64,000 nt of DNA from Tolypothrix sp. PCC 7712 (GTDB lineage: Bacteria; Cyanobacteriota; Cyanobacteriia; Cyanobacteriales; Nostocaceae), in the NCBI RefSeq assembly GCF_025860405.1, contig NZ_CP063785.1, positions 1,178,001 through 1,242,000 of the forward strand, read 5' to 3'. Shown piece after piece: positions 18,624 to 27,270 of this stretch. The notes below the pieces were generated by a model that did no database searches, was not told the origin of the DNA, and was given only the letters and a program-made list of their open reading frames with translations. Positions within the stretch are counted from its first letter, which is position 1. Every line of letters begins with the position of its first letter. A program made the position numbers and the translations under genes.

Positions 18624-19154
18624 ATGCCTGAAATAGAAACTTTGCGTCTGCGATTAAGACACTTAACGTTGGCTGATTTTGATGACTTGTTTCGTATCTA
18701 CAGCGATGCGGAAATTATGAAATATCTGGTACCCAGAACAGCAGAGCAAACACAGACTAGTTTATACAGACATATTAAACAATGGGAAGAAAACAACTTT
18801 GGTATGTGGGCAGTAATACACAAAGAAACTGGCAAAATAATTGGGCGTTGTGGATTGGGTTATTTGGCAGATACGCCGGAAGTGGAACTAGGCTACGTTT
18901 TTGACAAGTCTTTTTGGAACATGGGTATAGCAACAGAAGCATCGCAAGCCACTTTAAAATATGGTTTTTGGGAAGTAAAGTTAGATCGGATAGTTGCGAT
19001 CGCACATCCAGAAAACATCGCTTCTGTGCGTGTAATTGAAAAGCTAGGGATGAATTATCAAAAGCATACCAGCTACTACGGTCATGATGTAGTTTACTAC
19101 ACCCTCCCCCGCGACCAATGGCAACCGGATGACTCTCTGTATATTTTGCGGTGA
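18624..19154 (+). CDS. GNAT N-acetyltransferase (RimJ/RimL type)
   Basis: A 176-residue protein from MPEIETLRLRLRHLTLADF; the frame is open upstream to 18549, but family members start here. It has the RimJ/RimL layout: ETxRLxLR at the start, GKIIGRCGLGYL, VELGYVFDKSFWNMGIATEAS (the acetyl-CoA loop with the G-x-A-T-E-A signature), then HPENIASVRVIEKLGM. It transfers an acetyl group from acetyl-CoA to an unknown amine, perhaps a protein N-terminus. It is monocistronic. Confidence 0.88.
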   Translation: MPEIETLRLRLRHLTLADFDDLFRIYSDAEIMKYLVPRTAEQTQTSLYRHIKQWEENNFGMWAVIHKETGKIIGRCGLGYLADTPEVELGYVFDKSFWNMGIATEASQATLKYGFWEVKLDRIVAIAHPENIASVRVIEKLGMNYQKHTSYYGHDVVYYTLPRDQWQPDDSLYILR

Positions 19155-19303
19155 AAAGGGCATTGGGCATAGAGCATAGGGCATTGGGCATTGGGCATAG
19201 GGCATAGGGCATTGGGCATTGGTAATAATTTCCCTTTTTTCCTTTTCCCCTTTCCCCTTTTCCCCTCATCCCCAGTCCCCAGTCCCCAGTCCCCAATCCC
19301 CAA
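19155..19303. repeat. STRR block between convergent genes
   Basis: GGGCATT/GGGCATA heptamers (19155-19222), TTTTCCCC/TTTCCCC units and CCCCAGT heptamers up to the stop codon of the hybrid kinase. Confidence 0.85.
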
Positions 19304-21586
19304 TTACGCAATCACCCTCTGCAATGTCAGCAACAACTCATTAATGGTGTATGGTTTGGGTAAGAAGGTTGTCACGCCACTGTTGGCGACTGCTTCTAGT
19401 TTATTGCTAGACATCAAGCCACTGGTGGCGATAATTTTGACTTTGGGGTTGATTTTTTTCAAGGTGCGGATGGCAGTTAAACCGTCGAGGGAAGGTAGCA
19501 TCAAATCCATGAGTACGACACTGATTTGATCCATGTGTTTGGCGTAAACTGCGATCGCTTCTATGCCATCACTAGCGACAATGGTTTTATAGTTATGAGT
19601 TTCGAGAGATGTTTTGGTAATTTCCTGAATAGCAGGTTCATCTTCAACAATCATAATCGTTTCACCATTTGCGGTGGCAACTTTGGCATTGTCTGCTTTC
19701 AGTGTTTCTACACCCTCAACTGCTGGTAAATATACTTCAAAGCTTGTACCTACACCTTTTTCACTATGCACGTTAATAAAACCACCGTGGCTTTTAATAA
19801 TTCCCAAAACAGTAGACAAACCCAAGCCTGTACCTTGTCCTACTTCTTTAGTGGTAAAGAATGGCTCGAAGATTCTATCTAAATGTTCTTCTGGAATTCC
19901 TACGCCTGTATCAGTAACAGTAATTACTATATAGGGGCCAACTTTGGCTTCCAGGTTCATGCGCGCATAGTTTTCATCAATATACAAATTTTTGGCGCAG
20001 ATAGATAAACTACCGCCATTGGGCATCGCATCGCGTGCATTAACGCAGAGATTCATTAACACCTGATGAATTTGTGTTCCATCTCCAGAAACTACCCACA
20101 AGTCTTTTGACAAATCAGTTGAGACTTGAATTGATTTGGGAAATGTTTCTTTCAGGACTTTGGAAACTTCCACAATCAAATGTCTAATTTGCAGATTAAT
20201 GCGCTTACCTTCTACACCCCGTGCAAATGACAACACTTGCTTAACTAAATCTGCGCCGCGTTTGGCGTTGACTTCCAAAATTTCTAATAGGTGACGAGTT
20301 CTTTCATCTACATCGGGAAATTTCATGGGTAGGAGTTGCGCTCCTGCCAAAATTGGTGTGAGGATGTTGTTTAGGTCATGGGCAATGCCGCTAGCTAAGG
20401 TGCCTATGCTTTCTAGCCGTTGGGCACGAAATAATTGCGCTTCTAAGCGTTTCTTTTCGGTAATATCTGTATCAACGGTGAGAATGGATTTTGGTTTACC
20501 TTGGTCATCACATACCAAACTCCAACGGCTAGCAACTAAAATTTCTTTGCCAGTTTTGGTAAGTTTCGCTAACTCACCTTGCCATTTACCTTTATTGATG
20601 ACTTCCAAAAGTGCCGCTTCCATATCTGACGACGGTTCATCGTTATCTAACAGTTCGCTGGCATTTTTGCCTTTAGCTTCTGCCGCAGCCCAGCCATACA
20701 GGATTTCTGCACCTGTGTTCCAAAAGAGAATTTTGTTTTCTAAATCTCTAACTAAAATCCCATCTGTAGAAATATCTAATAATGCTGCTTGTTCACGAAT
20801 AGTAGCATCAGCGTGCTTACGTTCTTCTAAAGCTGCTTGACGTTCGCTAATATCTATGCAGGCACAAGTAATACCTATAATTTGTTGTGCTTCATTTCTT
20901 AATGGTTCTACCGTCAAGTCATAATATCGGATGCCTTGGGCCGTTGTAATTGATACCTCATCTCTAGTACCCACTCCCGTCACCAATACACCCAACTTCA
21001 TCGCCGTTAAATGGTGGGCGCTTTCTAGGGGAATTAATTCTGAGTCACGTTTCCCCAACATTTCTTCGGCTGTAAACCCAAAAGCGGGATTATAAACCCA
21101 GGTATAACGTAATTCTAGGTCTTGGTTAAACACAAAAATGGGTGAGTTTTTCAGCGCGACTCGAAAGCGCTCTTCACTTTGTCTCAAAGCATCTTCTATT
21201 CTTTGACGCTCAATAGCATAACGCATGGAGCGTACCAGCAAATCACCTGTAACTTGCCCTTTAACTAAATAATCCTGCGCGCCTTGTTGCATCGCTTTCA
21301 GTGCTAAAGTTTCATCGGCAATTCCTGTAAGGACAATAATTGGAGTTGATTTTGCTTGATTGTGCGCTTTAATAAAGGTTTCTAAGCCCTGGCTATCTGG
21401 TAGGGAGAGATCCAAAAGCATCACGTCAAAGCTGTCGCGAGCTAAATGGTTTAATGCCTCATCAAGTTGCTCAACCGGCATCAATTCCACTACAGTTGCG
21501 GTGACATCCTGTAAAAATTCTTGCAATAAGAGGACATCACCGGGGTTATCTTCAACTAACAGGACTTTAATCGTTTCACCTGTCAT
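19304..21586 (-). CDS. Hybrid histidine kinase: REC-PAS-PAS-HisKA-HATPase-REC
   Basis: A 760-residue soluble hybrid kinase. Receiver 1 (residues 5-125) has VEDNPGD and phosphoacceptor D59 (VMLLDLSLP). Two PAS domains follow (about 130-250 and 262-378). The dimerisation domain has H403 in SGIAHDLNNILTPIL, and the ATPase has NLCVNARDAMPNGG and DTGVGIP. A C-terminal receiver has VVLMDLMLP. ATG 21586 was chosen because GGAG lies eight bases upstream; the upstream ATG at 21592 overlaps the preceding stop as TAATG and leaves the SD too close. It is last in a three-gene operon and can receive phosphate at its N-terminal receiver from the kinase upstream. Confidence 0.92.
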   Translation of the reverse strand: MTGETIKVLLVEDNPGDVLLLQEFLQDVTATVVELMPVEQLDEALNHLARDSFDVMLLDLSLPDSQGLETFIKAHNQAKSTPIIVLTGIADETLALKAMQQGAQDYLVKGQVTGDLLVRSMRYAIERQRIEDALRQSEERFRVALKNSPIFVFNQDLELRYTWVYNPAFGFTAEEMLGKRDSELIPLESAHHLTAMKLGVLVTGVGTRDEVSITTAQGIRYYDLTVEPLRNEAQQIIGITCACIDISERQAALEERKHADATIREQAALLDISTDGILVRDLENKILFWNTGAEILYGWAAAEAKGKNASELLDNDEPSSDMEAALLEVINKGKWQGELAKLTKTGKEILVASRWSLVCDDQGKPKSILTVDTDITEKKRLEAQLFRAQRLESIGTLASGIAHDLNNILTPILAGAQLLPMKFPDVDERTRHLLEILEVNAKRGADLVKQVLSFARGVEGKRINLQIRHLIVEVSKVLKETFPKSIQVSTDLSKDLWVVSGDGTQIHQVLMNLCVNARDAMPNGGSLSICAKNLYIDENYARMNLEAKVGPYIVITVTDTGVGIPEEHLDRIFEPFFTTKEVGQGTGLGLSTVLGIIKSHGGFINVHSEKGVGTSFEVYLPAVEGVETLKADNAKVATANGETIMIVEDEPAIQEITKTSLETHNYKTIVASDGIEAIAVYAKHMDQISVVLMDLMLPSLDGLTAIRTLKKINPKVKIIATSGLMSSNKLEAVANSGVTTFLPKPYTINELLLTLQRVIA

Positions 21587-21591
21587 TAGCA

Positions 21592-22038
21592 TTACTCCGG
21601 TGGCAATTTGACAACCGCAAACCAAAAGTTCTCTATAGAACGAACAATTCTCACAAATTGATCGAAGTCCACTGGCTTAGTTATGTAACAGTTTGCAGCT
21701 AGGTTATAGGCTTTAAGAATATCTTCTTCGGCTTGGGAGGTTGTCAGCACAACTACAGGAATCCGTCTGAGATGTGCGTCACCTTTAATTTCTGCTAGTA
21801 CCTCCCGCCCGTCTTTTTTTGGCAGGTTTAAATCAAGTAAGACAATATCGGGATGGGGGACATCAGCATATTTATCTTGTTTTCGCAAGAATGCCATTGC
21901 TTCTACCCCATCCTCCACAACATTTAAGTTCACCGAGATTTTGCTATCCTCCAAAGCGATGCGTGTCAGTAACGCATCGCCAGGATTGTCTTCTACTAGC
22001 AAAACCTCAATAGGCATAACTGCTGATAAATTGTTCAC
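21592..22038 (-). CDS. Single-domain response regulator, Rcp1-like
   Basis: A 148-residue receiver-only protein. [17 protein letters not shown], phosphoacceptor D69 ([18 protein letters not shown]) and the long C-terminal [25 protein letters not shown] resemble Rcp1/RcpA, the partners of cyanobacterial phytochromes. Its GTG start (22036-22038) overlaps the TGA of the kinase gene as GTGA, with AGG about nine bases upstream; a second start is [10 protein letters not shown]. Lacking an output domain, it probably shuttles phosphate or binds a partner protein. Confidence 0.9.
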
Positions 22039-24971
22039 GATTGCTTACCTGCTTGATCTGGAATCGTAAAGTAAAAAATCGAGCCTTGACTCGGTTTTGA
22101 CTCCATCCAGATCTGACCGCCGTGGCGTTCTATAATTTTCTTACAAATAGCTAGCCCGATTCCAGTACCGGGGTACTTACTTCTGCTATGCAAACGCTGA
22201 AAGATGACAAAAATTCGTTCAGCATACTGGGATTCTACACCAATTCCATTATCACGTACTGAGAATAACCATTCGTTTCCTGTGGGGGTGAGATGGGGAT
22301 TTTCGGCTGTTTTGATGGTGTTTTGGATGGCTTGGATGTGAATTTGGGGTGGTTCCTCCCGATGAAATTTGATAGCGTTGGCAATCAGGTTTTGAAAGAC
22401 TTGTGCCAGTTGTGTAGTATCAGCCATAATTTCGGGCAGAGGATCGCAGGTAATTACAGCATTGCTTTCTTTGATTGCTACTTCCAAATTGGCGATCGCT
22501 TTTTCCACCACAGTCTGACAATCTATTAATTTAAAGGGTTGTCCCCTAGTGCTAACGCGGGAATAGTTCAACAAATCATTAATTAAGGTTTGCATCCGCT
22601 GCGCCCCATCAACAGCGTAGTTAATAAACTCATCTGCACGGCTATCTAGCTGACTTTTATACCTGCGCTCTAAGAGTTGTAAGTAACTAGTCACCATCCG
22701 CAATGGTTCTTGCAAGTCATGGGAAGCAATGTAAGCAAACTGTTCTAACTCGGTATTAGAACGAGTGAGTTCTTGCCGTTGGCGGGTTTCTTGTTCTAAC
22801 AGTTGGGCTTGCCACAAAGCAATACCAATTTGGTTAGCTAGTTGCTGTAATAAATCCAGTTCATGACTATGCCACTCGCGGGGGCTACTACATTGATGAG
22901 CAATCAACAAGCCCCAAATACCCTCGCCACTAAGAATTGGCACTACTAAGTTAGATTTAACACCATACTTTTGCAGCATTTCTCGATGGCAGTTTCGGAT
23001 ATTAGCATGATCAACATCTGTAATTGTGCTGACTCTACCTTGCCGATATCTTTCTAAGTAATTTTGCTGAAAGCAGTGGTCAATAATTTTTTGCCCCAAC
23101 ACTACAGGCCAACCAGGTAACACTGCTTCTTGCACTACCGTTCCCGAACCATCTGGCCACAGCCGGAAAATTAAAACTCGGTCGGATTGTAGGAGTTTTT
23201 GCACCTCTGTAACTGTGGTTTGCAGAATTTCTTCTATCTTGAGAGAGTCACGAATTTTGACAATGATTTGCGAAAATAATTGCGATCGCTGATTTTGCTG
23301 TTTGATTTGTTCTTCTGCTTGTTTGCGGTCATCAATATCGGTATGAGAACCGACCATTCGCACGACTTCTCCGTTGCTATCCCAAACTGCTTGCCCCCGA
23401 TCTAAAATCCACTTATAGTTGCCATCTTTGCACTGAATGCGATGCTCAGTTACATAATATGGCGTTTTTTTGTCAAAATGTTCGTGAACGGCGGCTAATA
23501 CCCAATCTAAATCTTCAGGATGAACTCGTTTTGACCATTCATCTAAATTATGAGGAATTTCTTGGTCGGTATAACCCAGCATTTCTTTCCAACGTGGGGA
23601 AAAGAATACTTCATTGGTTTTGACATTCCAATCCCAAATACCATCATTGTTGCCAGTTAAGGCCAATTGCCAGCGTAGTTCACTCGCCTGTAATGCTTCC
23701 TCAGCTTGCTTGCGCGCAGTCAAGTCAAGTGTAACCCCAATCATCCGCGTCGGTTGACCATCACCATCATAAATCCCCACACCTCGCGCTAGTATCCAGT
23801 GAACGCTGCCATCTGGCCAAATATTGCGATATTCTGCCTCATAATCGCTGTGATTTGCTAGAGCTTGTCTGACAGACTCTTGCATATAAGCGCGATCGTT
23901 GGGATGGATAGCTTGTAGTAAAGTGTCATAGGTAAACTCAGCTGACTCATCCAGACCCAAATTAGCCTTGCATTGCTTAGAGGCTGATAGCTCGCCTGTG
24001 AGCAAATTATGCTCCCAAGAGCCAAGTTTAGCAGCTTGCAATGCTATCTTCAGACGGCGATCGCTTTCGGTTAAAGCTGCTTCTACTTGTTTGCGATCAG
24101 TAATATCTCTGGTAAAACAGCGTGTATGGATAAATTCACCGTTTTCCCACAATACATTAGAGTGAATCAAAACATAGCGAATCGAACCATCCTGACAGCG
24201 CATCCGGGCTTCGTAATTTTGTAAATTTTCATTGTTACTCAGCCTTTGCATAATATCCGCGATCGCTTCTGGGTCAACATGAAACTCCGCGATCGAGTGT
24301 CCAATATACTCTGAGCGAGTGTAGCCTAAAAGGTCAAGTTCTGCCTGATTTGCCCAGAGAATCGTGCCATCAGCCTGTACCCAATGCATCCCGACATTAG
24401 CATTTTCTACAAAGTCTTTCAGTTCTTGCTGACTTCGTTCTAGTGCGGCTGTGACTCGCTGCTGTTCTAGGGAAACACGGGATAATTCTGCTAAATTCCG
24501 TCTTAATTCTAATTGGTCAATGACCTGGCGACCTAAAGCTTGCAGTGCTTCTATTTGTTGTTGGTTTAATTGTCGTGGTTCTTGATCGATAACGCAGAGA
24601 GTTCCTAGTACATCTCCCGTGGGAGTAATCAAAGGCACACCTGCATAAAATCTGACAAAGGGATAGGCAATGACTACCGGATTATTAGCTAACTTTTCAT
24701 CAGCTAATGTATCCGGCACAACTACAAAATCTCGTCGCTCTACGCAAAGATAGGATAAACCTACATTCCGAGGCATTTGTGGTACATCTAAGCCTAGTTT
24801 GGCCTTAAACCATTGGCGGTTTTCATCAATGAAATTGACTAAAGCGATCGAAGTACCACAAATAAAGGCTGCTAACTTAGCCAAGTTATCATAGGCTGCT
24901 TCTGGTTCGGTATCGAGAATTTGGTACTGGCGGAGGGCTGCAAGTCTTGCGGCTTCGCTATTAGGTAGCAC
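22035..24971 (-). CDS. Histidine kinase with a DXCF-type cyanobacteriochrome GAF domain (GAF-PAS-PAS-PAS-GAF-HisKA-HATPase)
   Basis: A 978-residue soluble sensor kinase. An N-terminal GAF (about 18-150), three PAS domains with PAC ends (~180-295, 303-422, 430-550), a second GAF (~563-725), HisKA with H751 ([11 protein letters not shown]), and ATPase boxes [15 protein letters not shown] and GTGIGL. The second GAF shows the bilin lyase-type Cys-His pair NCHREML (C661) and a DHCF motif (C633), the DXCF second cysteine, 28 residues apart as in TePixJ. It continues [10 protein letters not shown] and [17 protein letters not shown], which match cyanobacteriochromes closely. It should bind a bilin covalently and sense light; colour cannot be predicted. 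First gene of the operon. Confidence 0.9.
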
Positions 24972-25702
24972 AGGCTTTATAAATAATTATGAACATTTCT
25001 GATTTATCTAAATTTTAGAGAATTTTTTAATTTGAGCATCAAAGATGGTTGCTAACTGTTTAGGACTTACGCAAGTGTCACATTTTTTTCGTTGAGGCTG
25101 TCAAGGGGAGCCAGTTACGTGCGGTGAGACCAGCGCTGCAGGAGGGTTTCCCTCCGTAGGCGACTGGCGCTCGCGTAGCGTATCCGAAGGATTCACCCGA
25201 AGGGAGGTTCCCTCCGTTGAGTGAACTGGCGTTCAAAAGTCAAAAGTCCAAAAAACTGAATTTTTGACCCTTGACCCTTGACTCTTGACTCTTAAACCAG
25301 AAGATGGGTGTACCAGTTGCGTAAGTCCTGCTGTTATCTGACTTGATGCCTATCAAGAACTGTGGAAGAAGGAAACAGAGAAGAAAGAATCAATGTATAC
25401 ATAGCTTCGCACAAATCAAATATGATTCCTATAGTTAAGCTGGCAAGGAAATAAATTATCTGTTGTGGTTTCGCCTCAGAATTAATGAAAAGCCTACACC
25501 CTATGGATTTTGCATTTTGCCCCACAGTACTAGCGACTATGCAAGAGGCTACTCTAAACTGGAATAATGGAAGTATCGTTCAGCAAACAGCTAGCAAAAA
25601 CTGAAGATTGTAGTTTTTCCTTGGCGATTTTCGTGAACACTTATTTAAATAGTGTAGAAATCCTTAACTCAAATTCTGTCAGATGTGCTGGGAGTAATAA
25701 TA
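24972..25702. other. 731-bp region holding a repeat element and the kinase operon's 5' region
   Basis: It contains the inverted-repeat element at 25062-25329 and the upstream region of both flanking genes. A 63-residue minus-strand frame (25334-25525) has no start signal and is not accepted. Nothing else is recognised. Confidence 0.45.
25062..25329. repeat. 268-bp element bounded by AGGACTTACGCAA inverted repeats
   Basis: AGGACTTACGCAA at 25062-25074 and its exact complement TTGCGTAAGTCCT at 25317-25329 bound a non-coding interior. The interior holds smaller palindromes (GGAGGGTTTCCCTCC, AGTCGCC/GGCGACT-type stems) and GACCCTTGACTCTT heptamer-like tracts. The terminal 13-mer resembles the ends of small non-autonomous elements in cyanobacteria. 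Confidence 0.6.
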
Positions 25703-26175: not shown

Positions 26176-26586
26176 TTATCTATTTCTACGACCATTGGTG
26201 AGAACGTTAATTGCTGCACCTGCTGCTGCACCATCGATCGCATCGCCACCAGGATTTTTGGTGCCATGCAGAATGATGCCTGTAACTGTACTAGCAGCTG
26301 CACCAACTCCCACATCTTGACCTAAGTTACCAACTCTGCGGTTACGTGCTTGCTTTCTTGTACCGTGGACAGCATTCACCGCAGCACCAGCCGCAGCGCC
26401 TTTGATGGCATTATTAATAACGGCACCATTTCCTCTAACAGCACCAGTGACTACACCTGCACCTGCCCCAATACCGATATCGCGTAACATATCAGCAGAA
26501 GCCGGTTTAGCAGGGACTAAGGTACCGCCGGCTAAACTTGCAGCCATCAAGCCGGGTAGAATTGCGCGTTTTAAGTTGAGATTCAT
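26176..26586 (-). CDS. Exported glycine-zipper protein
   Basis: A 136-residue protein with a clear signal peptide (LKRAILPGLMAASLAGGTLVPAKPASA, cleavage probable after ASA about residue 31). The mature part has two glycine/alanine-zipper segments (GIGAGAGVVTGAVRG with AIKGAAAGAAVNAV, and GVGAAASTVTGIILHG with AIDGAAAGAAINVL) separated by a basic linker KQARNRR. The internal symmetry suggests duplication of one unit. Glycine zippers pack membrane helices, so it is probably envelope-associated. Function unknown. Confidence 0.7.
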   Translation of the reverse strand: MNLNLKRAILPGLMAASLAGGTLVPAKPASADMLRDIGIGAGAGVVTGAVRGNGAVINNAIKGAAAGAAVNAVHGTRKQARNRRVGNLGQDVGVGAAASTVTGIILHGTKNPGGDAIDGAAAGAAINVLTNGRRNR

Positions 26587-26734
26587 AGTGGTATTTTCTC
26601 AAAAAGTCCAACAATGCTCATACAACCGAAGTTGTTGTATTTACTGACTTTATTTTTATTCTAGACAACAACCACGGTTCGTTATGGCGTGAATACCGAT
26701 CATCCCATATACAAGCAGGCGATCGCATCTGTAA

Positions 26735-26890
26735 AAAGCTAGAAATTGGGAATGGGGCATTGGGCATTGGGCATGGGGCATTGGGTGTTTGGTAATGGGT
26801 AATTGGTAATGGGTAATGGGTAATTGGTGTTTCTCCCTTATCCCCCTTATCCCCCTCATCTCCTAGTCCCCAGTCCCTAATCCCCAGTCC
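26735..26890. repeat. STRR block before the YCII-like gene
   Basis: GGGCATT, TAATGGG and TAATTGG heptamers, then CCCCTTAT and CCCCAGT units, ending at the stop codon of the next minus-strand gene. Confidence 0.8.
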
Positions 26891-26894
26891 CCAA

Positions 26895-27164
26895 TCAAAT
26901 CGCCTGTATCCACTCTTGAATAGAGTATTCTGTCCAAATACCGTTTTGCCAGTAGGGGTCATTTTCAATCAACTGGCGTACGGTGGCTTCGTCATCGGCT
27001 TCATAAATACCAAAAACTTTGGTGACATCTTTGGTAGGGCCGATTGTAATCAGCACACCAGATTCTTTTTGTTTGGCTAAACCATCTAAATGGGCTTGAC
27101 GATAAGGGGCGCGTTTTTCTAAAACATCTTCGCAGTAACTTCCCAATAATACATATTTGGGCAT
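26895..27164 (-). CDS. YCII-related protein
   Basis: An 89-residue single-domain protein of the YCII family (dimeric ferredoxin-like fold). MPKYVLLGSYCEDVLEKRAPYRQAHL carries the conserved histidine, then GVLITIGPTKDVTKVFGIYEADDEATVRQLIENDPYW carries the conserved aspartate before PYW, and it ends WTEYSIQEW. The frame is open upstream through tandem repeats, so ATG 27164 is chosen. Biochemical role unknown. It lies 111 bp downstream of pheT on the same strand with repeats between. Confidence 0.85.
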   Translation of the reverse strand: MPKYVLLGSYCEDVLEKRAPYRQAHLDGLAKQKESGVLITIGPTKDVTKVFGIYEADDEATVRQLIENDPYWQNGIWTEYSIQEWIQAI

Positions 27165-27270
27165 TTGGTATTTGTCCTTTGGTGTTGGGTGTTTGGTGTT
27201 TGGTAATTGGTGTTTCCCCTTGTCCCCTTGTCTCCCAGTCAACAGTCCCCAGTCAACAGTCAACAGTCAA
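27165..27270. repeat. STRR block between pheT and the YCII-like gene
   Basis: TTGGTGT-type heptamers and CAACAGT heptamers (four copies near 27237-27270), next to the pheT stop codon. Confidence 0.75.

Follow-up and report, generated by a model that had tools for sequence, protein, structure and literature searches.

The host bacterium of the locus described here is famous for changing its colour with light. RcaE, the first cyanobacteriochrome to be discovered, is a green/red sensor kinase of chromatic acclimation; its GAF domain (8K9O, 7CKV) has a valine at the position of the DXCF cysteine and the pair CL at the canonical cysteine. The GAF domain of TePixJ (4GLQ, 4FOF, 3VV4) is of the blue/green DXCF type and, according to the names of the PDB entries, part of a chemotaxis-receptor protein. 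A cycle of second-cysteine bonding at C10 and a flip of the 15,16 double bond has reportedly been shown for TePixJ. In the phytochrome two-component pairs Cph1-Rcp1 and CphA-RcpA, the gene of a PAS-GAF-PHY kinase is followed by that of an Rcp-type single-domain receiver. PMC11284453 describes the DXCF chemistry as attachment of the canonical cysteine at C3-1 and of the second cysteine at C10 with conversion of PCB to PVB, typically yielding blue/green domains. DpxA of Fremyella diplosiphon is a cyanobacteriochrome kinase that senses teal and yellow according to PMC4937213.

We analysed a window of 64,000 nucleotides from Tolypothrix sp. PCC 7712 (contig NZ_CP063785.1, positions 1,178,001 to 1,242,000). 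PMC9679502 gives the genome as 10,115,897 bases in 16 contigs (CP063785-CP063800) and as 99.987% identical to that of PCC 7601, alias Fremyella diplosiphon. According to PMC4424289, PCC 7601 has 27 photoreceptors of the phytochrome class, and its two-component proteins number 305. The window contains a gene for a 978-aa protein that is, judged by its sequence, most likely a bilin-binding, light-switched kinase.

Results

The sensor histidine kinase is encoded on the minus strand (22035-24971) with a GTG start and an in-frame stop at 24989, 18 bases upstream of it. Pfam located two GAF and three PAS_3 stretches, and the order of domains is GAF, three PAS, cyanobacteriochrome GAF, HisKA and HATPase_c. 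The first GAF, whose boundary we set at residues 1-172 (24456-24971, minus strand), is without the motifs DHCF and NCH. The later GAF stretch, residues 563-725 (22797-23285, minus strand), is the cyanobacteriochrome domain. It is followed on the same strand by the dimerisation and phosphoacceptor domain HisKA (PF00512, residues 742-806, 22554-22748) and the catalytic domain HATPase_c (PF02518, residues 851-973, 22053-22421). The kinase motifs, including ASHDLQEPL with His751, were complete on reading the sequence, and the C-terminal 251 residues matched bacteriophytochrome kinases among others, with 8f71 as the best hit. Pfam returned no PHY match in the 978-aa protein. NCBIfam assigned no named cyanobacteriochrome family; among the best 25 of 81 rows the sole model past its cut-off was TIGR00229, a general PAS model.

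The first-pass annotation had proposed a DXCF-type cyanobacteriochrome GAF in a soluble histidine kinase, with two chromophore-type cysteines spaced as in TePixJ. Translation of the minus-strand ORF placed all of its coordinates as claimed: C633 (codon 23073-23075) lies in DHCF, residues 631-634 (23070-23081), which reads as the Asp-Xaa-Cys-Phe motif of the second, C10-type cysteine, and C661 (codon 22989-22991) lies in NCHRE, which begins at residue 660, with H662 next to it (C661-H662, 22986-22991). The distance of 28 residues between the cysteines equals that in TePixJ. In the phmmer alignment C633 fell on the cysteine of the TePixJ motif DPCF and C661 on that of its CH motif, the canonical bilin cysteine, which suggests that both residues are placed in the chromophore pocket. 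The flanking motifs had been said to match as well. This holds for GLLIAHQC, which is identical in TePixJ, while LVVPIL is near to the corresponding LVVPMV and differs from it.

Conservation of the two cysteines exceeds chance: among 80 relatives the first-position cysteine was present in 75, the second-position cysteine in 78 and both in 74, fractions that are inflated and partly circular because the relatives were fetched by six peptide patterns, two of which contain these cysteines. The aspartate of DXCF was kept in 76 of the 80. Free of this bias are the other GAF domains of the same genome, which were ranked by whole-domain similarity: 21 of the best 29 out of 68 further match rows had both cysteines. 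Thus a DXCF GAF is not unusual in this genome. Several of these paralogous matches sit in kinases; the three nearest within the lineage (L002, L003 and L004) are in hybrid kinases instead. In eight genomes of the genus, that of the window included, there was one orthologue-level match per genome at E ≤ 1e-70. Elsewhere in the genome of the window (L115:2528-5329) we noted a 933-aa protein with a PHY match and a two-cysteine GAF before HATPase_c.

These numbers bear on whether we are dealing with dpxA, the gene of the phycoerythrin-repressing sensor already described for this species, in which case the photocycle would be teal/yellow and there would be no C633 adduct in the dark. DpxA comes from the same species complex and, according to PMC4937213, is likewise a cyanobacteriochrome kinase. 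On the other hand, with 21 of the 29 best paralogous GAF matches carrying two cysteines, several of them in kinases, there are many other candidates, and we consider the identity with dpxA unlikely. The literature searched, which did not extend to the original description of DpxA, yielded no DpxA sequence, locus tag or domain order.

Membership of the GAF in the cyanobacteriochrome family was evident from phmmer, the tree and Foldseek. With the whole domain as a query against PDB sequences, phmmer ranked RcaE first (8k9o, 2.2e-45), followed by a dual sensor kinase (6oap, 9.6e-45) and TePixJ (3vv4, 1.9e-33); with the 94-residue core only, 6oap was first and TePixJ second (9.9e-23). Identity to the TePixJ GAF was 38-39%. 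A model built from 57 sequences reached a mean pLDDT of 86.8 and a pTM of 0.84. Foldseek matched it to 6oap (E-value 1.7e-20), RcaE (8k9o, 5.1e-17) and TePixJ (4fof, 1.3e-16; TMq 0.81), and miRFP670nano3 was also among the matches with an E-value of 1e-16 or better. The Z-scores of VIA were 25.0 for cyanobacteriochromes and up to 24.3 for bacteriophytochromes; because the two classes are not separated, these scores support the fold only. Since the closest solved GAF domains by whole-domain phmmer are RcaE and 6oap, and RcaE has no DXCF cysteine, a photocycle like that of TePixJ is not assured.

A tree of 117 rows, in which the bootstrap was incompletely settled and some rows were long according to a program warning, assigned the query GAF to a group of 84 rows that also contains RcaE (support 100/99). 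TePixJ was in another group together with five paralogs of the query from the genome of the window, L006, L009, L015, L016 and L030 (98/97), and AnPixJ and slr1393 formed a third (100/100). The TePixJ blue/green lineage as the nearest relative was ruled out by this grouping, despite the matching residues. A green/red RcaE type was rejected as well, as the query has a cysteine at the DXCF position and CH at the canonical site, while the RcaE type has no cysteine at the former and CL at the latter. By its sequence, the domain carries the two cysteines of TePixJ within the RcaE lineage. In a second tree, built from 79 of these 117 rows, an arrangement that keeps the other lineage members united apart from the four RcaE-type rows met with mild rejection (p-AU 0.034). 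For this test the group was chosen after the first tree, the relatives had been selected for their similarity to the query, and the inner forks are mostly unsettled. This is a mere hint, weakly favouring a position of RcaE nested among two-cysteine members of the lineage. We also observed a GAF from Thermosynechococcaceae (L076:613-1101) that groups with RcaE (97/92, and 96/92 in the second tree) and has kept a cysteine at the DXCF position (DDCL) together with CL, as in RcaE, at the canonical site.

The first-pass annotation had further considered violet/blue absorption through the second cysteine. The two cysteines alone do not set this colour: DXCF domains span from blue/green to green/teal by means of other residues of the pocket. 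Phenylalanines at β2 and α4 are named as tuning residues in PMC5240096, after which we ourselves assigned V612 to the β2 and Y669 to the α4 position. The corresponding residues are V and L in TePixJ, which thus shares only the former with the query, and F and F in AnPixJ. A teal-DXCF colour, for which phenylalanine is wanted at both positions, is disfavoured. Because of V612 and Y669, blue/green or blue/orange is expected rather than blue/teal, and we infer a blue dark state that would give way to a green or orange photoproduct.

Alternatively, the GAF may bind bilin and switch by a PVB green/teal or a PCB orange route, with C633 serving chromophore isomerisation rather than the formation of a blue-absorbing adduct. 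DXCF domains vary, and one that isomerises PCB to PVB without the second cysteine is described in PMC11284453; grouping of the query with the single-cysteine RcaE points in the same direction. However, the cysteine and the aspartate of DXCF are kept in the query and in most relatives, as in blue/green TePixJ, and we regard such a route as doubtful compared with the adduct-forming photocycle.

The gene immediately downstream of the kinase (21592-22038, minus strand), whose GTG start overlaps the kinase stop in GTGA, encodes a protein of 148 aa with a single receiver domain, which is of the phytochrome (Rcp) type. Its best PDB matches were 5te9 (6.4e-50), RcpA (1k68, 1.1e-42) and Rcp1 (1i3c, about 8.5e-41). 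The third gene (19304-21625, minus strand) codes for a hybrid kinase that, according to Pfam, begins and ends with receiver domains and has PAS, HisKA and HATPase_c in between; it probably starts at the ATG in TAATG, which overlaps the stop of the receiver. The succession of kinase and Rcp-type receiver resembles Cph1-Rcp1 and CphA-RcpA, from which the locus differs by the missing PHY match and by the additional hybrid kinase gene.

Gene order was surveyed in the first 30 of the 80 relative loci. In all ten loci of the tree group of the query (L031-L039 and L041) the first GAF, cyanobacteriochrome GAF, kinase, receiver and hybrid kinase follow in the same order. In nine of the other 20, a receiver followed by a hybrid kinase is encoded downstream, in many cases with reduced identity; in 11 this is not so, and at least one of these ends at a contig edge. 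The number of PAS domains in the ten loci was three in two, one in seven and zero in one.

The last result touches on a degenerate GAF with its cysteines kept and bilin binding lost, so that the kinase would be driven by PAS or the first GAF. It is true that the kinase has three PAS domains and another GAF, and that the number of PAS domains among relatives varies between three, one and zero with the cyanobacteriochrome GAF always present, the latter being the query. Yet both cysteines, the DXCF aspartate and the canonical histidine are intact in the copy of the window, and degeneration appears highly improbable.

Further along the window, the translations of ORFs at 18775-19311 and 26618-27263 consist of repeated phrases such as GDWGLG and CPMPNAL. 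Short repeats are common in filamentous cyanobacteria and would account for such ORFs. A 136-aa glycine-zipper-like protein at 26176-26586 scored 24.6 bits in Pfam, below the cut-off of 28.9, and has a relative at the corresponding place in L031. The YCII gene probably starts downstream of the listed TTG.

Discussion

Family, both cysteines, the aspartate of DXCF, fold and kinase motifs were all present as anticipated for a DXCF-type GAF in a histidine kinase. They support the prediction from sequence of a covalent bilin, a light-switched soluble kinase and second-cysteine chemistry. We therefore favour, with good confidence, a DXCF cyanobacteriochrome that would hold its bilin on C661, form a reversible adduct with C633 and regulate a kinase signalling to the receiver.

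By analogy with the family, C661 would bind phycocyanobilin through a thioether to ring A. C633 would form a reversible bond with C10 of this chromophore, shorten its conjugation and produce a violet-blue dark state. Light would then flip the 15,16 double bond, upon which the bond to C633 would break and a photoproduct absorbing at longer wavelength would result. The switch may be relayed by the helix after the GAF to HisKA and HATPase_c. Judging from gene order and its conservation, the kinase would phosphorylate the Rcp-like receiver and perhaps the hybrid kinase. The bilin should be at hand: the RcaE GAF of the same genome is identical to 8k9o over 170 residues, so that availability of the chromophore in the cell follows from the established biology of the species.

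A more far-reaching proposal is that RcaE is nested within two-cysteine DXCF kinases and has lost the second cysteine. The kinase would then be a dual-cysteine sister of RcaE and, joined by its Rcp-like receiver and the hybrid kinase, would provide the cell with a second, conserved channel for colour. We put this forward tentatively and think it rather unlikely. If the nesting were true, L076 with its DDCL and CL would be an intermediate.

The GAF kinase appears to be a sound but unremarkable representative of a family that is already well described. What it adds to the known picture is its placement in the RcaE lineage and the conserved order of three genes. Its importance is mild and derives from the occurrence of both cysteines within the RcaE group in a model organism for responses to the colour of light. 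Owing to the conserved receiver and hybrid kinase, the output of the kinase is directly testable.
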